Shown here piece after piece: positions 1-11,310 of a stretch of 35,570 nucleotides of DNA (positions within the stretch are counted from its first letter, which is position 1; each line of letters begins with the position of its first letter). The notes beneath the pieces are model-generated. The model was not told the origin of the DNA. It saw only the letters and a program-made list of their open reading frames with translations, and made no database searches. Source of the stretch: an uncultured Eubacteriales bacterium (GTDB taxonomy: Bacteria; Bacillota; Clostridia; Oscillospirales; Oscillospiraceae); assembly GCA_900319275.1 (NCBI GenBank), contig ONNS01000014.1:1-35570 (forward strand), in the 5' to 3' direction. The translations under genes and the position numbers were made by a program.

Positions 1-1
1 C

Positions 2-265
2 TATTATGATCGGAAATGGTATCCCGAGAGTCTGTATCTGCTTGCCATGCTGGATTATATCAGTCGAGAGAACGACATCCCCCTCTGTGACGAGTATGAT
101 GATCTTCGCCGGTGCAAGCTGGAAAAGCCGGTGTATCCGGCTGGCCTCCGGGCGGTATCGGCGGCATCCAAAGACAAGGCCGTTCTGCAAAAGGCTGCTA
201 TGACAGCGATTCCTGAATTCAAACGGTTCAATATTATTGAAAACGAGGTAAGAAATGTCATCTGA
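2..265 (+). CDS. Hypothetical protein, C-terminal part (partner of the downstream nucleotidyltransferase)
   Basis: The reading frame is open from the window edge to a stop at 263-265, so only the last 87 residues are visible and the start lies to the left. The fragment is acidic-aromatic (PESLYLLAMLDY near its start) and ends EFKRFNIIENEVRNVI. It overlaps the next gene by 11 bp, which implies translational coupling. From memory, small proteins of this kind sit directly before DUF6036 nucleotidyltransferases in clostridial mobile elements, so it could be the antitoxin-like partner of an AbiE-type pair. That role is inference only; no DNA-binding motif is visible in the part present. Confidence 0.6.
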   Translation, partial: YYDRKWYPESLYLLAMLDYISRENDIPLCDEYDDLRRCKLEKPVYPAGLRAVSAASKDKAVLQKAAMTAIPEFKRFNIIENEVRNVI

Positions 266-1052
266 AAAACAGTTTGAGTTTACGAAGGAAAACATCGATC
301 TCTACCTGAAAGAGGTCGCCAAGGAATACCGGAAGCAGGCAGGAAAAAAGATGCCTGCCGAACTTGTTCTGATCGGCGGAGCCTCTGTTCTCATCAACTA
401 CGGCTTTCGGAATATGACCACGGATATCGATGCACTAATCCAGGCGGCGTCCGCCATGAAGGAGGCCATCAATCATGTTGGTGATCGGTACGGGCTCCCG
501 AATGGCTGGCTGAATGCGGACTTTACGAACACCGATTCCTATTCAGTGAAGCTGTCTCAGTTTTCCGTGTATTACAAGACCTATGCCAATATCGTGACCA
601 TCCGCACGGTGGCTGCGGAATATCTGATCGCCATGAAGCTCCGCTCCGGCAGACAGTACAAGAGCGATCTGTCAGACATTCTGGGCATTCTCGCAGAGCA
701 TGAGAAACGCGGGATGCCAATCTCGATGAAACAGATCCGCAAGGCGGTAACCGATCTTTACGGAGGCTGGGAATCGCTTCCGGAAACCTCGCAGGCGTTT
801 ATAAAAAATGTCATGGAGGACGGGCGCTTTGAAGAGCTTTATGAGCAGACGGTAAGCAGTGAAAAAGAGGTTGGTGCGCTGTTGGTTCAGTTTGAGCAGA
901 ATTATCCCAATGTCATAACAGGGAAAAACGTAAACGAGATCGCCGGAAACCTGCAGAAGAAAACAGACCGAGCCTCCATCCTTGCAAAGCTACGGGAGAA
1001 GAAAGCGGAGACGGATCAGCCAAAGACCCAAAAGCGGGATGGCCGCGAATGA
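255..1052 (+). CDS. DUF6036-type nucleotidyltransferase (AbiEii/toxin-like fold)
   Basis: A 265-residue protein. Residues 38-44 (VLIGGAS) followed by TTDID at 55-59 give the GG(A)S...DxD signature of the minimal nucleotidyltransferase fold. In this superfamily these residues bind Mg-NTP, and members such as AbiEii transfer a nucleotide to RNA or protein targets. The C-terminal third is helical and charged and has no recognisable domain. The gene overlaps the upstream partner by 11 bp and is followed by a strong terminator, so the two form a closed two-gene unit inside a mobilizable element. A stabilisation (toxin-antitoxin) or phage-defence role is plausible by context but not shown by sequence. 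The ATG at 255 is taken because it couples to the upstream stop. Confidence 0.75.
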   Translation: MSSEKQFEFTKENIDLYLKEVAKEYRKQAGKKMPAELVLIGGASVLINYGFRNMTTDIDALIQAASAMKEAINHVGDRYGLPNGWLNADFTNTDSYSVKLSQFSVYYKTYANIVTIRTVAAEYLIAMKLRSGRQYKSDLSDILGILAEHEKRGMPISMKQIRKAVTDLYGGWESLPETSQAFIKNVMEDGRFEELYEQTVSSEKEVGALLVQFEQNYPNVITGKNVNEIAGNLQKKTDRASILAKLREKKAETDQPKTQKRDGRE

Positions 1053-1074
1053 TAAGACAACGGATACCACACCC

Positions 1075-1117
1075 GGCCGGGAATGATACCACAACAGTAT
1101 CACTTCCGGCCATTTTT
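1075..1117 (+). terminator. Intrinsic terminator after the nucleotidyltransferase
   Basis: Arms 1075-1089 and 1097-1111 pair over 15 positions, with one mismatch and one G-T pair. The loop is 7 nt and TTTTT follows at 1113-1117. It starts about 20 bp after the nucleotidyltransferase stop and closes that two-gene unit. Confidence 0.8.
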
Positions 1118-1141
1118 GATGCCAAAAAACAATCATAAGGC

Positions 1142-1200
1142 GCGCAGATACTAATTATCCCGGCGCTTGACACCAAGCCACGGAAAAATGGTATCTGCGC
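1142..1200 (+). promoter_or_regulatory. Inverted repeat with possible promoter before the DUF3847 gene
   Basis: Perfect 10-bp arms GCGCAGATAC (1142-1151) and GTATCTGCGC (1191-1200) are separated by 39 bp. A TTGACA at 1167-1172 and GTATCT at 1191-1196, 18 bp apart, could be -35 and -10 boxes; the -10 would lie in the right arm. This arrangement could be an operator for a mobilization regulator. The promoter reading is tentative because the -10 is weak. Confidence 0.4.
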
Positions 1201-1230
1201 TTATCATTTCTGCTACCAAGGAGGTTAATT

Positions 1231-1428
1231 ATGACAGAAGACGAAAAGAAACTGCTCCAGGCCAAGCATCGACTGGAGGAAGCCGAGGCGAGAGACCGCG
1301 TGAAGGAGCGGAAGGCACGGACGCGGCGATTGATCCAGGAGGGAGCTATTTTGGAGAAGGTCTTTCCCTCTGCTACGGGAATGGATCTGACGAAACTCGA
1401 AGATATTTTACGCGAGCATTTTTCTTAA
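1231..1428 (+). CDS. DUF3847-like small mobilization-associated protein
   Basis: A 65-residue, highly charged, mostly helical protein (KHRLEEAEARDRVKERKARTRR in the middle) whose C-terminal half is more hydrophobic. Length, composition and position immediately upstream of a MobA/MobL relaxase match DUF3847 proteins of Firmicutes mobilizable and conjugative elements. Their function is unknown; a role as relaxosome accessory or regulator is inferred from context. A strong ribosome binding site (AAGGAGG, about 6 nt before the ATG) supports the start. A terminator follows directly after the stop, so the relaxase must have its own transcription start or depend on read-through. Confidence 0.7.
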   Translation: MTEDEKKLLQAKHRLEEAEARDRVKERKARTRRLIQEGAILEKVFPSATGMDLTKLEDILREHFS

Positions 1429-1436
1429 CGAGAGTT

Positions 1437-1474
1437 GGGGCGTTCCGGGAAACCGGGGCGCTCCGCTTTCTTTT
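1437..1474 (+). terminator. Intrinsic terminator after the DUF3847 gene
   Basis: A 12-bp stem (1437-1448 with 1453-1464, three G-T wobbles) is closed by a GAAA tetraloop and followed by GCTTTCTTTTAT. It lies 8 bp after the DUF3847 stop. Confidence 0.7.
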
Positions 1475-1495
1475 ATCTCGAAGGGCGCACTTACT

Positions 1496-1518
1496 CACCA
1501 CCCGCGTTGCGGGTGGTG
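1496..1518. repeat. Perfect hairpin in the mobilization region
   Basis: CACCACCCGC (1496-1505) and GCGGGTGGTG (1509-1518) form a perfect 10-bp stem with a GTT loop. No T tract follows, so it is not a typical terminator. It is the first of a series of hairpins between the DUF3847 and relaxase genes, probably part of the transfer origin region. Confidence 0.7.
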
Positions 1519-1620
1519 GTATGGCCTGCGGCCAACGCGCGCTCTCCGAGGGGGATGCGGCTCCTGTGGGAGCCTACAGCCAATGCTGCCGAGACTGCGG
1601 TCCCAGTCATCATTGTCTGC

Positions 1621-1672
1621 GCGGAGGGATCGGTACACCGATCCCTCCGCCTGCGTAAGCGTGTCGGGCCCG
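1621..1672 (+). other. Candidate origin of transfer (oriT): perfect 14-bp hairpin plus nic-like sequence
   Basis: GCGGAGGGATCGGT (1621-1634) and its exact reverse complement (1637-1650) form a 14-bp hairpin with a 2-nt spacer. It is followed at about 1653-1672 by CTGCGTAAGCGTGTCGGGCC. MOBQ-family origins (RSF1010, pIP501) have the same order: an inverted repeat and then TAAGTGCGCCCT, which is cut by the relaxase. Here TAAGCGTG is a partial match only. The relaxase gene starts 370 bp downstream, a usual distance. The nick position is not determined. Confidence 0.5.
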
Positions 1673-1811
1673 AACCCCTGCCGCCTGTGAGCGTCCCTTT
1701 TCGGACCTTTTTGTCCCGCCTCTCTTGCCGGGCGTCAGCCCGGCGGCGCTCGTTGGGCGCAAAAAATCCTCGAAAACTGCCAGCTCACAGGTGCTTCGCA
1801 GTTTCCGCGGA

Positions 1812-1897
1812 GCAGATTTGGGCTGAGGCGAGGCGCAGCCCGCAGGGAATACTCCTGTATTTCCAAGGGCTGGAACGAAGCATCCGCCCAAATCTGC
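1812..1897. repeat. Spaced inverted repeat upstream of the relaxase
   Basis: GCAGATTTGGGC (1812-1823) and GCCCAAATCTGC (1886-1897) are perfect 12-bp arms around a 62-bp spacer. With flanking CGCGG/CCGCG they could form a larger cruciform or a single-strand initiation structure used during mobilization. The function is inferred from position only. The remainder of 1519-2020 shows no gene. Confidence 0.6.
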
Positions 1898-1993
1898 CCG
1901 CGCAAACCGGCAGGCGTTCAAGTCCGACACGCTTCAACCTGCACCCGGCAGCTTTGTCGCAGAGGCAGGGCGAACCAAAAAGGATCGCCCTGC

Positions 1994-2015
1994 TTTCTCT
2001 TTTTCGAAAGAGAAA
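1994..2015 (+). repeat. UUCG hairpin just before the relaxase ribosome binding site
   Basis: TTTCTCTTT and AAAGAGAAA form a 9-bp stem around a TTCG tetraloop. It ends about 13 bp before the GGAGGTG ribosome binding site of the relaxase. It may modulate relaxase translation or be part of the transfer region. Confidence 0.6.
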
Positions 2016-2042
2016 CAGAAAAAAGATTGGAGGTGAAAACGA

Positions 2043-3755
2043 TTGGCCATTTACCATTTGGAGGCGAAGGTCATCAGCCGAGGGACAGGACGTTCCGCTT
2101 GCGCGGCCTCGGCCTATATGAGCTGCTCCGCCATCTATAACGAATATGACGGCGTCCAGCATGATTACACCCGGAAGCATGGACTTGTCTGGGAACACGT
2201 CTTCCTCCCGGACTGCGCCCCTACGGAGTGGCAGGATCGCGCGAAATTCTGGAACGCCGTAGAGGAAGCGGAGAAAACGAAAGACAGCAGACTGGCCCGT
2301 GAGTTTGTCGTGGCCTTGCCCATTGAGCTGGGCAAGGACGAATGGGTTGATCTGATGGCAAACTTTATTCAGGAACAATTTGTAAACGAGGGCATGTGCG
2401 CGGATGTGGCGATCCACGACACGGACGGGCACAACCCCCATGCCCACATCATGCTGACCGTGCGACCTCTGAATGAGAACGGCACCTGGCAGCACAAAAC
2501 GGAGAAGGAATACCTTTGCGTCAAGGATGGCGAGGAACGGGGCTTCACTGCTGCTGAGTACAAAGAAGCCCAGAAGGACGGCTGGGAGAAGCAGTATCAG
2601 TACAAGGTCGGAAAAAAGAAAGAATATATGGTTCCTTCTGTTGCCGAAGCGCAGGGCTTGGAGCGTGCATCCAAGTATCCGAAAAGCACGAAATACGGCA
2701 GGCAGAATCCGATCTCCGAGCGATGGAACAGCGACGAGCAGTTGGTTGCGTGGCGGGCGGCCTGGGCGGATGAAGTCAATCTCTGTCTGGAACAGAAAGG
2801 GCTGGATGCGCGCATCGACCACCGCAGCTTTGCCGATCAGGGTAAGGTCGAGCAACCCACGATCCATGAGGGCGTGGCCGCCAGAGTAATAGAGAAGAAG
2901 GGCTTCGTCTCGGATCGCTGTGAGATGAACCGGCAGATCAAGCGGGACAACGCTCTGCTGCGGGAGATCAAAGTGCAGGTCAAAAAGCTGATGCAGGCGG
3001 TCAAGAACACGATCCCGACGCTTGCGGAGGCTATGGAATCCGTGCGGGCAAAGATGATCGTTTTCCAGTATCAGCTTGGCTATATCCTGACGGGCAAGCG
3101 CAGGCTGACAAAGAGCCTTGATGTGATGAAGTCGGAGTTGGAGCGTTATACCCGGATCGTCGGACAGATCAAGGAAAAGGGCAAAGAACGGAACACCCTG
3201 CTTACCGAGAAGAAAGCAACGCCGGTGCTCAATATCTTAAAGCACCGTGATCTCACACATCGCATAGCGGAGCTGACGGAGGAACTTGAAGATCTGCGCA
3301 CCGAAAAGAAACAGCTTTTTGCCTCTCTGGACTATGCCGAGGATACCGGGCTTTCCACGGTGAAGAAAGATATCTCCGCTATGGAGGCCAACCTGGCAAA
3401 GCTGGAGCAGCAGGAGCAGAAGTACACCGACGAGCTGAACGTTGCCCTTGCGGAGTACGAGGAGCTGAAAGCACAGACGGCAGATTTCGATTCCGACGAG
3501 CTGGCTATGGCGCAGCTTGAGATCCGCCCTCAAAAGGAAGCCTCCGCTGAAAGCCGAGTGCAGGCTGCTTACGGGGACAAGTATGACTTCTGGACGATGA
3601 TCGGCGCAAAGCGGGATGTCGTGGAAATGCTGGGAGAGGAAGAACCCCAATCCATCCGTGAGCGTCTGCGTGGAAAAGAGATTGAAACGCAACGGATTAA
3701 CCGGGAGCGCGAGCCCCACATAAAAAAACCGAGAGATATTGGATGGGAGCGGTGA
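2043..3755 (+). CDS. mobA: MobA/MobL family (MOBQ) relaxase
   Basis: This 570-residue DNA-nicking relaxase cleaves one strand at oriT and pilots it into the recipient through a helper conjugation apparatus. The N-terminal 190 residues carry the MOBQ motifs. Motif I is GTGRSACAASAY, with the likely catalytic Tyr25, and the metal-binding HxxHxH cluster is HNPHAH (H130, H133, H135) after HDTDG. The rest is long, charged and strongly coiled-coil (about 290-500), as in mobilizable elements that lack a full conjugation machine. The start is TTG at 2043, preceded by GGAGGTG with 7 nt spacing; no better ATG fits. No type IV secretion gene or integrase is visible here, so the element is mobilizable rather than self-transmissible as far as can be seen. 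Confidence 0.9.
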   Translation: MAIYHLEAKVISRGTGRSACAASAYMSCSAIYNEYDGVQHDYTRKHGLVWEHVFLPDCAPTEWQDRAKFWNAVEEAEKTKDSRLAREFVVALPIELGKDEWVDLMANFIQEQFVNEGMCADVAIHDTDGHNPHAHIMLTVRPLNENGTWQHKTEKEYLCVKDGEERGFTAAEYKEAQKDGWEKQYQYKVGKKKEYMVPSVAEAQGLERASKYPKSTKYGRQNPISERWNSDEQLVAWRAAWADEVNLCLEQKGLDARIDHRSFADQGKVEQPTIHEGVAARVIEKKGFVSDRCEMNRQIKRDNALLREIKVQVKKLMQAVKNTIPTLAEAMESVRAKMIVFQYQLGYILTGKRRLTKSLDVMKSELERYTRIVGQIKEKGKERNTLLTEKKATPVLNILKHRDLTHRIAELTEELEDLRTEKKQLFASLDYAEDTGLSTVKKDISAMEANLAKLEQQEQKYTDELNVALAEYEELKAQTADFDSDELAMAQLEIRPQKEASAESRVQAAYGDKYDFWTMIGAKRDVVEMLGEEEPQSIRERLRGKEIETQRINREREPHIKKPRDIGWER

Positions 3756-3779
3756 TACGCCGCCCCCATCATTTCGAAT

Positions 3780-4007
3780 ACTATATAGGAAGGCAATGGT
3801 GATGGCCGCTCCTTGAAATATCTCAGCAAGGTACCTTGCTGTTTTCACGTTATCAAGAGCAGGAAAAGCCTTCTTTATGCCTACTAAGCGAATGCGATTG
3901 TTTCGTATGGCCTCTGTGCGCGCAATCTCTGGGATTTGCTTTAGGAAAGCTATCTTCTGTAATCCATCATACTGATTATGAAAACAGTGGACAAAACATA
4001 AATCAAT
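3780..4007 (-). pseudogene. Unrecognised gene fragment at the element boundary
   Basis: On the minus strand a frame is open with protein-like composition (QKIAFLKQIPEIARTEAIR, then RIRLVGIKKAFPALDNV, KTARYLAEIFQGAA). It has no start codon and its upper end is a stop just below the GGDEF gene. It then runs on into relaxase sequence on the other strand, so its lower end is probably artificial. It looks like a leftover of a host gene broken at the mobilizable element's edge. I do not recognise the family. The rest of 3756-4058 shows nothing else. Confidence 0.3.
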
Positions 4008-4058
4008 TCATTTATCTTCGTGCAAGTCACAAATGGTTGGCGATGAAGCGAGCAATAT

Positions 4059-4565
4059 TTAGATTTCCCTCTGTCTGCCTCTTTTTCGGGATCGTTTATT
4101 CTCATACATGAGTTTGTCCGCACGACGCGCTGTTTCGTACTCAGTAGCATCTATCTTCGCGTCATATATGGCAATTCCCACAGAGACGCGGACCTGATTC
4201 CATTCATTTTCCGCGCAGGCGCAGATATTCCTGCATTCCTGAGAAAACAAATCCAACAGTTCGGCCTGCTTCGTGTAATCCTCATGTACCAGAAGCACGG
4301 CAAACTCATCTCCGCCGATCCGGAAGACGGAGCTTCGCTTGAAAACTCTGCAGATCAGGCCGCTGGCCGCCTTCAGGTATTCATCCCCCTTGTCATGACC
4401 GTTGCGATCATTGATGCCTTTGAGATCATCACAGTCGAAGACCCCGATTGCCAGGTCTTTCACCTCTCCGCGATCCAGCTTGTCCTGGAGCTCTCGCATG
4501 TATAAATCAAAACCGCCCTTGTTTCGGACAGAGGTGAGTGCATCCTTTGTGGCAAGATCGCTCAT
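4059..4565 (-). CDS. GGDEF domain (diguanylate cyclase), separated by one in-frame TAA from the APC protein
   Basis: This 168-residue protein is a complete GGDEF domain with no sensor. DALT is at 8-11, the metal aspartate region FDCDD at 43-47, and the active-site loop GGDEF at 84-88. The RxxD inhibitory site that normally lies five residues before GGDEF is absent, so product inhibition is not expected. GGDEF domains make cyclic-di-GMP from two GTP but need a dimerising sensor to be active. Upstream, the frame is open through seven codons (ARETAER, a typical linker ending) back to the TAA of the APC transporter gene. So this is probably the C-terminal domain of that protein, now cut off. Without its sensor half it would depend on re-initiation; no good ribosome binding site precedes the ATG. 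Confidence 0.8.
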   Translation of the reverse strand: MSDLATKDALTSVRNKGGFDLYMRELQDKLDRGEVKDLAIGVFDCDDLKGINDRNGHDKGDEYLKAASGLICRVFKRSSVFRIGGDEFAVLLVHEDYTKQAELLDLFSQECRNICACAENEWNQVRVSVGIAIYDAKIDATEYETARRADKLMYENKRSRKRGRQREI

Positions 4566-4586
4566 TCGCTCCGCCGTTTCCCGCGC

Positions 4587-6311
4587 TTATGACAGCTGCT
4601 TGCCGAGCCGCTGTGTGTCTCTGTAGTTGCTCATCATGATGAGGACGGACAGCAGGAACATGCCGAGGGAGACAAGAGAATATAAGGTGTTGGTGCTGCT
4701 GATATGCTTGGCCTGCTCATGCAGGAAAAGCAAGCGCTCCGCTTCACTCTTTTTAAGATCTACCGTGGGATGGCTCTGATGATAGAGATAGATCCTCTCG
4801 ACTGCTTCGTCCGCGGCTTTCTCTGTTGCCCTTGAGGCGCACATGATAGACGCGAACAGCACAAGAAACAGAAACAGAATCCAGACAATGAACCGCAGAT
4901 TATGCTCACCGTCCCTGTCACGCGCAAGCAGCCAACGGAAATAGGCAAGACCGAGCAGCGACCATACGATAAATAGGAAATAGGACTCCGTTTCCATTGC
5001 GTGAAAGGGGAGCAGGCCGGGAACCAGCGTAAGCAAAACAAAGCAGAGCATCAGAACCAGACCTATGATTCCGGTTACGGTCTCCAGCCGTCGGTGCGCC
5101 CGCCTGGCATGGTGAAAAACCGCCTGGGAGATAAACCCGTAAATCAGCGTAGCGCCAAGGGTGGTGACATCGACGATCCACCCGATCGCCGTCCGGCCCA
5201 GCAGTGGAATGAATGCGGAAAGAAGTACGACGGCATAGATCGCCTTTTGCGGAATGCCTTTCCCGTTGAACTCTGAAAACAGACTGGGCGCGTCGCCTTC
5301 TCTCCCGGCCGCGTACAGGACACGGCTGAGCGCCAGGAGATTCCCGATCAGGCTTGTCAGGATCACGCCAAGAAGTGCAAGCATTAAAATCACGACGCCG
5401 GTCCGGCCAAGATAATGCTCCGCGGCATAAAACGCCGGAACAGCCCTCGGCCCGTCCAGATTCCCCATGTCCCGGATATAGTCCAGCCAGCTTTCATATT
5501 CCGGAGGATATGCGGATATGGACAGCAGGGATACGAAAAGATACAGAACTGTCGTAACCACGACTGAGAAGATCAGAATAGCGCGGATCCGCCTGACCGG
5601 AAAGCGGTACTCTTCCGAGAAATGGGAGACGTTCTCAAAGCCGATGAAGGCCCAGGGCGAGATGACGGCGATGCGGACGATCTGTGAGATTGCGCTGGAC
5701 TGCTCCGAATACAGCGGAGCATAGCTGAACGCGCGCTCATGCCGAAGTATGGCCATGACCGCGCAGACGGTAAAGCCGAGCGCAAAGACCAGCGCGGCAG
5801 CGATCATGATCCTGTCAGGCAGACGTGAACTGTGCGCGCACAGAAACCCAACCAGGCCTATGCTGCCTACAGACAGAAGCACCTCGCCCATCCAGACCTC
5901 ATATCCAAAGATCTGATAATGAAAGCCGAACTGGAACGTGCTCCCCAGGAAAAACCGTGCAAAAAGGGGGACTGCGGTGATGTTCGCCCACAAAACCGCA
6001 AGATAACCGAGGAGAACGAACCACAGGGCAAGGAAGCCCAGATCCTTCCCGCCGACGCTGCGCTCAAAGCTGTAGATGCCGCCCGCGTCCGGCCTGCTCC
6101 GGATCATATACTGGAGGTTCCATGTGATGACCAGGATGATCCCCATGCCGATCAGCAGGCCAAACGCCGTCCCGAGGATGCCCGCTTTTTGAAGATAGGT
6201 ATTGCATGTAATAATGAATGAGCCCCAACCGATACTGGTTCCGATTGAAATCGCCCAGATTCCCAGCGGGCTGAAAGCGGGAGACAGGCCCTTGCTACTC
6301 TTCGTGTTCAC
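4587..6311 (-). CDS. APC-superfamily transporter-like protein with extra C-terminal sensor hairpin
   Basis: A 574-residue integral membrane protein. The N-terminus has the APC signature GTSIGWGSF (about 24-32) in the first membrane segment, and about 12 segments follow to roughly residue 460, the usual length of amino-acid permeases. Beyond that core it carries two more membrane segments (about 476-498 and 542-559) that enclose a short extracytoplasmic helical loop. A cytosolic tail, YRDTQRLGKQLS, comes next. This tail is arranged as in membrane GGDEF proteins, and a GGDEF domain follows in the same frame after one TAA. It may therefore be a transporter-derived receptor for amino acids rather than a plain permease. 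The start is GTG at 6311 with GGAGG 7 nt upstream. The TAA could be a recent point mutation or a sequencing error. Confidence 0.8.
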   Translation of the reverse strand: MNTKSSKGLSPAFSPLGIWAISIGTSIGWGSFIITCNTYLQKAGILGTAFGLLIGMGIILVITWNLQYMIRSRPDAGGIYSFERSVGGKDLGFLALWFVLLGYLAVLWANITAVPLFARFFLGSTFQFGFHYQIFGYEVWMGEVLLSVGSIGLVGFLCAHSSRLPDRIMIAAALVFALGFTVCAVMAILRHERAFSYAPLYSEQSSAISQIVRIAVISPWAFIGFENVSHFSEEYRFPVRRIRAILIFSVVVTTVLYLFVSLLSISAYPPEYESWLDYIRDMGNLDGPRAVPAFYAAEHYLGRTGVVILMLALLGVILTSLIGNLLALSRVLYAAGREGDAPSLFSEFNGKGIPQKAIYAVVLLSAFIPLLGRTAIGWIVDVTTLGATLIYGFISQAVFHHARRAHRRLETVTGIIGLVLMLCFVLLTLVPGLLPFHAMETESYFLFIVWSLLGLAYFRWLLARDRDGEHNLRFIVWILFLFLVLFASIMCASRATEKAADEAVERIYLYHQSHPTVDLKKSEAERLLFLHEQAKHISSTNTLYSLVSLGMFLLSVLIMMSNYRDTQRLGKQLS

Positions 6312-6405
6312 TGATTACCTCCACTGCGATACAGTACAGACACAGACCCGGCCGACTCAACGAGTTCTATGGCGGTGATCGAGGGGCTGAGTTGCCGGCC
6401 TGCGG

Positions 6406-6945
6406 TCATTCTGTGGGTGCGGGCCGATCGGGGGAGCCACGGTCAGAGAAGCAGAACGCTTCAAACTGCTCCAGCGGCATGGGCTTTGCAAAGTAGTAGC
6501 CCTGGAACATGCTGCAGCCCATCTCCAACAGCATATGGAACTGTTCCTCCGTCTCAACGCCCTCGGTCAGGGCGGGGATGAAGAGGTCTCCCGTCATATG
6601 CATGATGTTGCGCAGAATCGTCTGCGCCTTCCGGTTGAGACCGGCTTCCTTCAGAAACAGCATGTCGATCTTGACCAGATCAATGGGCATGTCCTTAAGC
6701 ATATTCAGAGAGGAAAAACCGCTTCCGAAGTCGTCCATCTCCACCAGAAAGCCCGCCTCGCGGAGCTCCTTCATGATACGGAGACCCATGTTCGAGCAGA
6801 CATATCCGATGATGTCGGTCAAATCCGTCTCATACTGCCGATAGAGCGTCCTTCTCATCGTGTACCACTCCAGACTTACCAGAGCGGCGATCAGAACGAG
6901 GAAGAACAGAACACTTCTGAGGAGGATGCTTTTTCGATCGGGTGC
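6406..6945 (-). pseudogene. Internally deleted EAL (cyclic-di-GMP phosphodiesterase) gene remnant
   Basis: The frame begins after a stop at about 6946 and has no ATG until 6858. The leading part encodes a membrane helix (SVLFFLVLIAALVSLEWYT) and then MRRTLYRQYETDLTDIIGYV, the usual start of a periplasmic-sensor signalling protein. At about residue 24 from the ATG it jumps straight into the second half of an EAL domain: MDDFGSGFSSL (41-51), EGVET (99-103), QGYYFAKPMP (119-128). The sensor, any GGDEF and the EAL-motif half are missing, so the phosphodiesterase cannot be active. An in-frame deletion of more than 1 kb would produce exactly this. It sits between the giant GGDEF-EAL gene and the APC gene, all on the same strand. 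Confidence 0.75.
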
Positions 6946-7005: not shown

Positions 7006-10000
7006 TCATAAACCTGCTTTCAGGCGGCTTTTATTTTCATACATATTTTGATCCGCACGCTCGAATACCGCAGCGACATTTGCGTCGTTCTCGTATTTCG
7101 CCATCCCACAGGCAATAACAATGCCGCCGTTCTGCACTGCTTCAGCGTTGTGCTCGTTCACTTTCCCAATCAGTTCTTCCACGCGATCATAATCGCTCCC
7201 CTGAGATATAACCGCAAATTCGTCGCCGCCAATTCGGAACACGGGACTCCTTTTGAATATCTCGCAAATGGTTTTGCACGATTCACAGAGGTAATGGTCG
7301 CCGGCCTGGTGACCGAAGCTGTCATTGACCGTTTTTAGGTTGTTTACGTCAAAGACAACGACTGCGAACGGCGCCTGCCTGTGCATTTTGATCTGCCGGT
7401 TCAAAGCCCTTTCCGTCACTGTGTAAGCGTGTTTGTTCTTGACCCCTGTCAGAGCGTCAAGGCTGGCCGCGCTCTGCGCCTTTGCGAGCTTTCTTCCGTA
7501 TTCCTCTTGCTGGCGCACCTGCGCGTCAATATTGTTGAGTCCGACGATCAGACGGGTGCCCTCCTTCTCCTCCACCGTCGCCGCTTTCAGCTGAAAGTAG
7601 ACATATTTGCCATCCATCAGGATGCGGTAACCCAGTGTAAAGATGCCGCTTCGCCCGATTTCCTCCATCACGTTCTCCTGCGTCAGGAGCGCGAGAACGC
7701 GCTCCGTGTCCTTCGGATGGCTGAAAACCCGCACGGCGCTGCGAAGTGTCGCAAAGAACTCGGTGCCCTCCTTCGCCTGCGCAAAGCTCTCTTCGTAATG
7801 ATCGTTTGCGCTGAACTCGCGGTAGCGGCCTGTTTCCGGGTCAACAACGTAGACGACGATATAGTTGCCGTTGAGGGCGTGGAGGCGTGCATAAATGATT
7901 CGCTCCTCCATAATTCTCTCCTCAGACTGACGCTTTTTTATCAGCTCGTCGACATCCGATACAGCCATAACAAGCAGGCTCGGATCGTCTTCGAATCGGG
8001 AAATGTTCATCCGGACGTAGAACGATCTCCCGTTCTTGATCCTGCGATAGATCAGCTTATGCTCTTTTGACTTGCCCAGCTTGTTTCTGAGAAAGACCGG
8101 GTCCATCGTGCTGACAAACGCATCCCGATCCTCCGGATGGACGAACAGCCGAACATCCCGCCTGCAGCCCTCAAAGAAATCCGCGCCGCGCCGCGCTTCG
8201 GTAAGAATCCCGAGACTGCTGTCTGTCTGGAACTCAACAAACTCATCGGTGTCGATGTTCACGTAGTACAGATCCGTATATTCCCTGGCCAGAGCCTGGG
8301 CGATATGCGTAAAGATGGTCTCCGACTCGTTTGTGCTGGGCTCTTTTGAAAACAGTCTGTTGACGCCGAAAAGAATCTTTTCTCCGCTGTCCTCCCTGAG
8401 CAGCGTCGCACGCAGGCTGACAGGCACATACCTGCCTTCGATCAGCAGCCGGTAGTTGTGAACAAACAGCCCGTTCTGCCTGATGCCACGCAGTACATTG
8501 TCCTTGGTGAGAATATACAGAATCCGCTCTCTGTCCTCCGGATAGAGGACCTTCTCACCGTCTGTGATCACCTGGTCAAAGAAGGCATCTCCCTGCTCTG
8601 CGAGACCCAGCTGCGCGTACTCTGCCGAGGAACTGTACTTGAAGAACTGCTCTGTGACGGGATCGACGATGTACAGGGCAATATAATTCCCGGCCAACGC
8701 GGCAATTCTTCCCAGCGAAACGCTCTCCTGCCGCAGCTTTTTCTCCTCCTCCTGCTTCTTCATCTGTGCGTCAATAATGCTGATGCCCAGAATGATGCGG
8801 TTTCCGCCCCTCATCCTTGTGATCTTCATATTGACGTACATGGGGTTTCCGGTATCGATAAGCCGATAAGTAGTCGTAAAAACGCCCTGCGCGTCCAAAT
8901 CTCGGAGGACATTCTCTTTTGTAAACAATGCCAGGAACGGCTCCCTGTCCTCCTCGTAGATTCGTGTCAGCGTATCCCGTCTGGCAGATTCAAAGAACTC
9001 CTTACCGTGACGTACAACTGACATTTCCTCGCCGCCGACCTGTGAAGCGTACTCGGTGTAGTCGTTTGTATCCAGGTCGATCACGAACAGATTGTAGTAG
9101 TCAGCTGCAAGTGCCCTTGCTATGTCCGCATAGGTTGTGTTTTCATCCGGCGCTGTGATGGAGAGCACGGCAACCGCGACCGCTGCGCTCCCCGTAACAG
9201 GGTTAACGTCTACCCGCCTCGCGAAAGCGTGGACAAGCGAGCCGTCCGGCATCCTGTCATCGAAGAAAACGCGGCTTCCGGTTTCACCGCACTGCTTCAC
9301 CGCGGAAAAACAGGCGGATAGGTATCCGTCGGAGGTCTGCGAAATGGCCCCCTGCCCGTTCGTGATGCTGATGCCGAAATAACGCTTTATCAGGTCGAGA
9401 TAGGAACGGTTGTGGCGCAGATATCTTGGCACGCCGTCACGAATCTCCAGCACGGCGATCGGAATGGTGGCAAAATAGTTCTGCAGCATATCCCTCTCTT
9501 CGCCGGTAACGACGCCGATGTCGAACAGGTTGACTCTCCCGACATTCTCATAATAAGCGGCCTCTTCCGGATTCTCGTTTTCGATCAGCGTATTGCTGCT
9601 GTGCATTTTCCGGATAACGTTATAGGGCAGCGGCTTACTGTAGTAATAGCCCTGGAGCTTTGAGCATCCGATCTCCCGCAGAAACCGAACCTGTGCTTCC
9701 GTTTCCACGCCTTCGCAGACCGTGTCCATATTCAGGGAGGTCACCATGCGCATAAGCTCTGTCAGGATGATCTTTCCCTCATCTCCCGGCTCCAGCTTCC
9801 GCATAAAGCTCATGTCGAATTTGATCAGATCAAACCGGATACACTGCAGAACATCCACAGAGGAATAGCCGCTGCCAAAGTCGTCCATCCATACGGGAAA
9901 ACCCAGGGAGCGGAATCTTTCAACCTCTTTCTTTATAAAGTCCACATCGCCGCCAATGACGCTCTCGGTTATTTCGATTGTGATCAGGCTGTGGTCGACC

Positions 10001-11310
10001 CCGGCGGTATCCACCCGCTTTCGGATTTCCTCAACAATATCACAGGCGTCAAAGTCGGCGCGTGAGAGGTTGATGGAATGGGGGATAACCGTGAAGCCAT
10101 CGGCTTTTTGTGTCTGTATCAATTCGATGACCCGGTCGACCATATACAGATCCAGCTTATATATCAGTCCGGCCTCCTCCAGCGCGGGGATGAAGCTGTC
10201 AGGAGGCAGAACGCCTTTTTCGGGGTCGTTCCATCTGGCCAGTGCTTCCACATCACATATTTTTTCATTGACAGCGCGGATGATCGGCTGGAGATAGATC
10301 TCTATCCACTTCTCGCGTACAGCGGTATCAAAATTTTCTACGATATACTGCTTCCGCATGGCTTCGTCACGCAGCCGGGTATTGTAATAGCGGTAGGAAG
10401 AGATATATGAGCCTTTCAGCGAAGAACATGCTAGCTTTGCCCTATCGCAGGCGACGCTGATAGGAACATCTTCCATTCGCTGTGGATATATCCCCACATG
10501 GACCGGCGGCGTTTTTCCGCCGTACAGCTCCCCAAATGCGTGAAAAATGCCGTCCAGCTTGTCCTCAAGCCCTGCTTCCTCGATGGCCGCCGCAAAATGA
10601 TCCGCCCCGATGCGGCAGCAGTTCTCACTTCCGAAGGCGCGGCTCAGTATTCTCGCAAAGGACAGGAGCATTTTATCTCCTTCGGCGAAGCCGTGATTCG
10701 CGTTGAAGAATTTCATGCCGCTGAAATCAACATACAAAAGCGCCGGCTGTCCGCCTTTATCCAGAATGGCTTCCTTCAACGCGTCAGCCCGCTCAAAGAA
10801 CAGCGTCATGGCAGGCAGCCCGGTAAGGAAGTCAAAGGAACTGGATTTCACAAGGCTTTCCTCATGGAGGGCGTTGTTCATGGCCCGCTGCAGCTCAGAC
10901 TCATCGCCCTTGGGTTCTTCGGCATACGTCCCTTCGTCTGTATACCATATGTGGGCAAGACGGACGCCGTCCTCCGTATACACATGACGACCCAGGGCGT
11001 GAACGATCTTGTATCCGGCCCCGCTTTTCGTGGAGGTCCGGTAGATCACCTCATACTTGCCGCCCTCGGTCGCAAAACGGAACGCGGCATCGGCAATCCT
11101 TGCCATATCGTCGGGATGCGTATCCTTGTACATGTCGTGATCCATGTCATAATAGGCCTGTGCTTTGTCTTCATACCCGAAGAGCTCACAGAACCCGTCC
11201 GAGAGAGCAATGGTCACCACCTGCTTATGGATAAACTGATAGATGGCAAACGGCATCTGCAGGCTCTCATACGTGCTCTGCAATTGTTCAGTAAAGCGAT
11301 ATCTCTTCAT
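7006..11310 (-). CDS. Giant PAS / degenerate GGDEF / EAL / tandem sensor / GGDEF cyclic-di-GMP protein
   Basis: 1434 residues, no membrane segment. The domains in order are: PAS (about 15-130); a degenerate GGDEF with GADHF at 235-239, so no cyclase activity there; an EAL domain (about 325-570) with E355-A-L, ITIEITES 443-450, DDFGSG 476-481 and EGVET 533-537, so a likely active phosphodiesterase; a PAS-like module (about 600-735); four related sensor modules (about 740-865, 870-995, 1000-1125, 1130-1250) that alternate in type; and a C-terminal canonical GGDEF at 1361-1365, likely active but without the RxxD inhibitory site. The protein can thus both make and break cyclic-di-GMP under cytosolic signals. 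Its first 870 residues parallel the protein at 30264-33608. It lies 79 bp downstream of the membrane GGDEF gene and probably shares its transcript. The ribosome binding site (GGTGAT) is weak. Confidence 0.9.
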   Translation of the reverse strand: MKRYRFTEQLQSTYESLQMPFAIYQFIHKQVVTIALSDGFCELFGYEDKAQAYYDMDHDMYKDTHPDDMARIADAAFRFATEGGKYEVIYRTSTKSGAGYKIVHALGRHVYTEDGVRLAHIWYTDEGTYAEEPKGDESELQRAMNNALHEESLVKSSSFDFLTGLPAMTLFFERADALKEAILDKGGQPALLYVDFSGMKFFNANHGFAEGDKMLLSFARILSRAFGSENCCRIGADHFAAAIEEAGLEDKLDGIFHAFGELYGGKTPPVHVGIYPQRMEDVPISVACDRAKLACSSLKGSYISSYRYYNTRLRDEAMRKQYIVENFDTAVREKWIEIYLQPIIRAVNEKICDVEALARWNDPEKGVLPPDSFIPALEEAGLIYKLDLYMVDRVIELIQTQKADGFTVIPHSINLSRADFDACDIVEEIRKRVDTAGVDHSLITIEITESVIGGDVDFIKKEVERFRSLGFPVWMDDFGSGYSSVDVLQCIRFDLIKFDMSFMRKLEPGDEGKIILTELMRMVTSLNMDTVCEGVETEAQVRFLREIGCSKLQGYYYSKPLPYNVIRKMHSSNTLIENENPEEAAYYENVGRVNLFDIGVVTGEERDMLQNYFATIPIAVLEIRDGVPRYLRHNRSYLDLIKRYFGISITNGQGAISQTSDGYLSACFSAVKQCGETGSRVFFDDRMPDGSLVHAFARRVDVNPVTGSAAVAVAVLSITAPDENTTYADIARALAADYYNLFVIDLDTNDYTEYASQVGGEEMSVVRHGKEFFESARRDTLTRIYEEDREPFLALFTKENVLRDLDAQGVFTTTYRLIDTGNPMYVNMKITRMRGGNRIILGISIIDAQMKKQEEEKKLRQESVSLGRIAALAGNYIALYIVDPVTEQFFKYSSSAEYAQLGLAEQGDAFFDQVITDGEKVLYPEDRERILYILTKDNVLRGIRQNGLFVHNYRLLIEGRYVPVSLRATLLREDSGEKILFGVNRLFSKEPSTNESETIFTHIAQALAREYTDLYYVNIDTDEFVEFQTDSSLGILTEARRGADFFEGCRRDVRLFVHPEDRDAFVSTMDPVFLRNKLGKSKEHKLIYRRIKNGRSFYVRMNISRFEDDPSLLVMAVSDVDELIKKRQSEERIMEERIIYARLHALNGNYIVVYVVDPETGRYREFSANDHYEESFAQAKEGTEFFATLRSAVRVFSHPKDTERVLALLTQENVMEEIGRSGIFTLGYRILMDGKYVYFQLKAATVEEKEGTRLIVGLNNIDAQVRQQEEYGRKLAKAQSAASLDALTGVKNKHAYTVTERALNRQIKMHRQAPFAVVVFDVNNLKTVNDSFGHQAGDHYLCESCKTICEIFKRSPVFRIGGDEFAVISQGSDYDRVEELIGKVNEHNAEAVQNGGIVIACGMAKYENDANVAAVFERADQNMYENKSRLKAGL

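Follow-up and report, generated by a model that had tools for sequence, protein, structure and literature searches.

Receptors that join a membrane domain of transporter-type fold to swappable signalling outputs are already known from CbrA with its SLC5 domain and from receptors of the S-component fold. CbrA has been called a transceptor and combines an SLC5 transporter-fold domain, a STAC coupling module, and a histidine kinase in one chain, with coupling to the output proposed to occur through the STAC domain (PMC13022988). The 5TMR-LYT receptors, which have the S-component fold, are reported to carry PAS, GGDEF, EAL, or kinase outputs (PMC11109136).

We analyzed a stretch of 35,570 nucleotides (hereafter, the window) from an uncultured Eubacteriales bacterium (GenBank assembly GCA_900319275.1, contig ONNS01000014.1, positions 1 to 35,570), one locus of which appears to be a broken membrane sensor-cyclase, whose APC-fold permease domain, two-helix C-terminal module, and GGDEF domain would have formed one chain. 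This arrangement resembles that of CbrA and CrbS, the SLC5-STAC histidine kinases, in having a transporter-fold membrane domain, a coupling module, and a signalling output on one chain, whereas the membrane domain in the window is of the APC type (AA_permease_2) and not SLC5, the output is a GGDEF domain, and the gene is split. No SLC5/SSS membrane domain was found, as the permease part matched two Pfam families at E ≤0.001 and both belong to the APC type. Further, the coupling module of the window's family looks like two membrane helices followed by a long cytoplasmic helix, in contrast to the cytoplasmic STAC bundle; the corresponding extension of the close relative L043 matched none of the Pfam profiles used and is predicted to form two long helices. 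The likeness to the 5TMR-LYT receptors lies in a transporter-like membrane fold with swappable cytoplasmic outputs, including GGDEF and EAL, although their membrane fold is that of the S-component of ECF transporters rather than APC. None of the open-licence papers listed in our literature searches deals with an APC-GGDEF protein, as judged by titles and the beginnings of abstracts.

Organization of the Split Frame

On the minus strand, positions 4059–6311 form one frame, in which translation of the window gave a single internal stop after residue 574. The first part is an APC-type amino acid permease frame of 574 codons (4587–6311), with a GTG start at 6311, a TAA stop, and an RBS-like GGAGG (6318–6322, minus strand), read directly from the sequence, 6 nt before the start. 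AA_permease_2 (PF13520) matched residues 14–430 of this part with 87.8 bits (cut-off 27), and PF00324 matched it with 72.2 bits (cut-off 24.6). Residues from approximately 475 to 574 (4590–4889, minus strand) constitute a C-terminal extension, delimited by alignment and containing two long helices according to the L043 model; we take these helices as putative TM13 and TM14, together with the start of a cytoplasmic helix.

The in-frame TAA that splits the frame (4587–4589, minus strand) is followed by the seven linker codons ARETAER (4566–4586, minus strand), within which a GGAG at 4572–4569 lies just 3 nt from the ATG at 4565. From this first ATG, a GGDEF (diguanylate cyclase) frame of 168 codons runs to a second TAA at 4061–4059 (4059–4565, minus strand; Pfam domain match 4083–4550), so that the translation after the internal stop begins with ARETAERMSDL and leads into FRIGGDEF. 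GGDEF (PF00990) matched residues 13–168 of the second part and positions 2–159 of the 161-position profile with 83.6 bits (cut-off 23.8). The domain is complete and in frame, its RxGGDEF motif is present as FRIGGDEF, and no second lesion was found in the 175 codons 3' of the stop. GGDEF cyclases work as dimers formed through an N-terminal helix or a sensor, and it is the N-terminal helix of this GGDEF domain that the stop interrupts. Translation and Pfam thus confirmed the original prediction that the APC frame ends at TAA 4587–4589 while the same frame stays open via ARETAER into the GGDEF domain. The full length of 743 that it had given for the joined frame was too low by seven, because the seven ARETAER codons had been left out of the count; from the GTG at 6311, 574 residues, the stop, and 175 codons amount to 750 positions.

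Fused Relatives in Other Genomes

A search with the permease part gave a match in 17 of 60 genomes, own genome included, with several of the matches being plain permeases that lack the extension. The corresponding figures, again with the own genome included, were 8 of 102 genomes in a search of the genus at a strict cut-off and 12 of 394 in a search of the order. Named species genomes were searched with an 11-sequence alignment, and the best 80 of 575 confirmed candidates, which represent 79 distinct loci and, being the best, close and mid-range relatives only, were examined. These 79 loci (best 80 of 575) lie in metagenome assemblies, many of them from the guts of goat, sheep, deer, or buffalo, and are labelled mostly as Clostridia, with some others such as Chloroflexi, Sutterella, and Spirochaetales.

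The junction (query residue ≥560) was reached in 77 of the 79 loci from the best 80 of 575 candidates, and none of the 77 has a stop there. All of these 77 loci (best 80 of 575) have at least 45 open positions beyond the junction, the shortest being L066 with 45, and the open frames of eight run to the edge of the contig or locus. The column of the stop is matched at residue 574 itself in 46 of the 77 loci and was reached by ungapped extension in the other 31; its codon is most often one for Glu (32/77, best 80 of 575). As for the two loci short of the junction, the match in L109 ends at residue 541 with the frame continuing for 201 residues, and that in L095 stops at residue 369, with 127 bases of contig left. 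The genus and order searches supplied 18 more loci, partly the same genes as the named loci, and all 18 were also open at the junction. The gene therefore descends from an uninterrupted fusion. The arrangement opposed to this, in which each part as a rule has a gene of its own and a ribosome binding site lies between the two, was rejected, as it was seen at none of the 77 junction-covering loci among the best 80 of 575.

Uninterrupted APC-GGDEF fusions, whose presence in related genomes followed from the original prediction, were indeed found: L043 and L056 have the architecture and the GGDEF type of the window without a break. Their identity to the window is 70.0% and 69.5%, respectively, in the permease and 53.1% and 52.6% in the GGDEF half. 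Besides GGDEF alone, as in these two, the outputs on the permease frame include PAS-GGDEF (L028), GGDEF-REC-GGDEF-EAL (L031), and histidine kinase-REC-REC (L034, in the own genome). The last is a paralogue with a permease part 36% identical to that of the window and the same extension, although it carries a two-component output instead of GGDEF and forms one open frame of 1108 aa. An extension of approximately 100 residues is common to the fused proteins and is lacking in the alignment from the plain permease L037.

Three further observations were made on these loci. Inspection by eye of L029 (G027:C7, 6333–16416, minus strand) revealed three tandem APC sensor fusions with different outputs, namely, GGDEF, GGDEF-REC-GGDEF-EAL, and histidine kinase-REC-REC. 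The translations of L118–L121 and L123 from related genomes, also examined by eye, have the window's GGDEF type behind sensors that are solute-binding-protein-like or Cache-like, and this GGDEF type looks like a swappable cassette. The highest listed identity among the named relatives (best 80 of 575) belongs to L104 (4342–6064), with 74% over residues 2–324; it is frameshifted near residue 324, and its junction is open.

Structure Model of an Intact Relative

An AlphaFold2 model of L043 was built from 26 sequences (mean pLDDT 86.1, pTM 0.71). The LeuT/APC fold was recognized in this model, that is, in a relative whose permease part is 70% identical to that of the window. In its fold, this permease part agrees with AdiC, ApcT, a bacterial CAT homologue, which we take to be GkApcT, and CAT/LAT, with 14–18% identity in those alignments. 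The two-helix extension and the output lie past the end of the alignments with these transporters, which is near model residue 474. The extension is modelled as two long helices, 475–515 and 523–597, the second of which is unbroken up to the GGDEF domain and, on a putative membrane topology, would run from the membrane to that domain. Reckoned from the ends of the alignment, the stop of the window corresponds to about residue 578 of L043, inside helix 523–597. The AdiC/CAT-like fold of the model suggests that the intact proteins may be gated by amino acids.

Tree, Linker Length, and Rate Comparison

In a permease tree of 88 sequences, the window fell with 54 fused relatives into a clade of 55 that contains no plain permease (support 1.0). 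Its nearest neighbours in the tree are L066 and L090, with a support of 0.56; strict orthology with L043 and L056 is not supported, as the tree does not group the window with them. Rooted on one of the five plain permeases, the tree does not bring these five together as a single outside group, and for this reason the deep branching is not interpreted.

The linker from the end of TM14 to the DxLT motif has 21, 28, or 35 residues in the eight close members measured, and that of the window has 28 when the stop is counted as one residue. In 20 other sequences, it has 18 or 25 residues. These lengths come from 92 sequences, 72 of which passed the first anchor and 28 of which were measured, at least one gene being present twice (L030 = L097); the other 44 past the anchor carry a different output, lie on a truncated contig, or do not fit the pattern. 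Steps of seven residues suit a coiled-coil signalling helix.

We also compared the sites unique to the window with those unique to L043 and L056. The window had 43 such sites in the GGDEF half and 105 in the permease half, against 19 and 41, respectively, for sites found only in the relatives (Fisher p 0.74, from few sites). Measured against the permease half, the GGDEF half has thus not changed faster than in L043 and L056. The comparison, a weak test, did not show selection on the GGDEF half to be relaxed; it presumes one history for both halves and may be blurred by output swapping, because the tree does not group the window with L043 and L056.

Cyclic di-GMP Genes of the Same Genome and the Neighbourhood

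The own genome contains 17 GGDEF matches, 16 of which lie in open frames of at least 363 codons, and only the domain split off here from the permease stands alone in a short frame (175 codons). Likewise, six of the seven EAL matches cover nearly the whole domain, the truncated exception being the upstream neighbour of the permease in the window. This EAL remnant (6409–6942, minus strand), directly upstream of the permease frame, consists of a membrane-segment-like stub and the C-terminal part of an EAL domain (EAL match 6481–6780, positions 137–236 of the 236-position profile) and lacks the first half of EAL, while its eight best relatives have frames of 748–803 codons. A possible start in another frame was seen by eye just upstream of the remnant, which may carry a frameshift besides the missing piece.

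Farther upstream (7006–11310, minus strand), a 1434-aa protein that matches PAS, EAL, and, twice, GGDEF occupies one open frame, and a MobA/MobL-type relaxase gene (2043–3755, plus strand) lies beyond the 3' end of the GGDEF frame, both identified from open reading frames and Pfam matches. The adjoining of two damaged signalling genes, together with the relaxase gene, suggests local decay or rearrangement. An interspersed repeat at approximately 1649–1925 of the window has parts that match about a dozen other places in the genome at 67–91% identity. No copies of window positions 1–4300 were found in a plasmid collection at megablast sensitivity, and a search for viral copies of the GGDEF piece gave one pattern match in viral_contigs and none that was confirmed. 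In the genus, four GGDEF and four EAL matches are listed with an in-frame stop inside the match; one of these, L123, has a whole frame, so its listed stop is probably the terminal one.

Origin of the Internal Stop

We consider it rather probable that the gene, having descended from an intact fusion, was cut by a real nonsense codon, probably recently. The cut is probably recent because the GGDEF half has no other lesion. The dating draws mainly on this absence of further lesions, and a still-functional separate GGDEF protein would look alike. We rank a real nonsense mutation above an error because the neighbouring EAL gene is also damaged, which points to local decay or rearrangement. Among the three options of the original prediction, a very recent nonsense mutation fits best, a sequencing error retains a smaller share of the probability, and read-through gained no support.

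The next explanation in order, and a clearly less probable one, is a sequencing or assembly error, in which case the fused gene would be intact in the cell and the stop confined to the assembled sequence. A lone substitution with no frameshift in an otherwise intact domain is how an error would be expected to look, and the sequence comes from a single genome of the species, assembled in 161 contigs. Breaks in assembled copies are also not rare, the permease frame being broken in 4 of the 79 named loci (best 80 of 575), by frameshifts in L104 (near residue 324), L082, and L089 (near residue 78) and by the early match end in L095. However, the adjacent EAL gene lacks a long piece, for which a base-call error offers no explanation, and substitutions are less usual than indels among assembly errors.

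It is unlikely that the split is a working one, in which translation of the permease stops at the TAA and begins anew at the ATG 21 nt farther on to make a separate small GGDEF protein, which would perhaps associate with the permease. Such an arrangement would account for the in-frame ATG at 4565 with GGAG 3 nt before it, and for a GGDEF domain whose sequence is unbroken and has not changed at a raised rate relative to the permease half. Yet, among the intact relatives, where no such role is possible, 43 of the 77 (best 80 of 575) have a start codon in frame no more than 75 nt from the junction, and 8 of the 77 (best 80 of 575) have one with a Shine-Dalgarno-like four-mer. The start signal at 4565 is accordingly at no more than chance level by the latter measure and was rejected as evidence for a separate gene. 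The 3-nt spacing is short in comparison with the GGAGG and 6 nt at 6311, all other GGDEF matches of the own genome are in longer frames, and split pairs are absent from the 77 junction-covering loci of the best 80 of 575, the set in which they were looked for.

Stop-codon read-through yielding some full-length protein, as the frame continuing unbroken past the TAA would allow, is very improbable: TAA also ends the GGDEF frame at 4059, on which ground a general reassignment of TAA was rejected, selenocysteine and pyrrolysine recoding use TGA and TAG, respectively, and a stop at this place occurs in 0 of the 77 relatives (best 80 of 575).

Proposed Mechanism and Meaning

Under the preferred explanation, a real nonsense mutation in a once intact fusion, the parts of the locus can be given tentative roles. 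Binding or transport of a solute by the permease domain of the intact relatives would shift the two-helix module and the long helix, and the shifted helix, reaching from the last membrane segment to the GGDEF dimer, would set the rate of c-di-GMP synthesis, by analogy with CbrA. In the window, the nonsense codon in the cytoplasmic part of this helix, a few residues past the membrane, would detach the cyclase from its input; on this reading, the change would be a genuine and recent one that uncouples sensing from cyclase activity.

By their architecture, the intact relatives would work like transceptors. A more far-reaching reading, which we hold to be improbable as a whole, is that they are little-described APC-fold transceptors in which one permease sensor is connected to alternative outputs (c-di-GMP synthesis, c-di-GMP turnover, or phosphotransfer) via a helix that varies in length by whole heptads, and that the window represents a natural decoupling of this sensor from its cyclase, perhaps retained as a two-protein system.

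Taken by itself, the split is a commonplace broken gene, and it is the uncut family that is of interest. In these proteins of gut bacteria, the sensor that acts on c-di-GMP enzymes or histidine kinases appears to have the fold of an amino acid permease. With an APC sensor linked to c-di-GMP, one could test directly whether the conformation of a transporter sets the level of a second messenger, and the naturally occurring stop in the window shows the point at which sensor and enzyme part.
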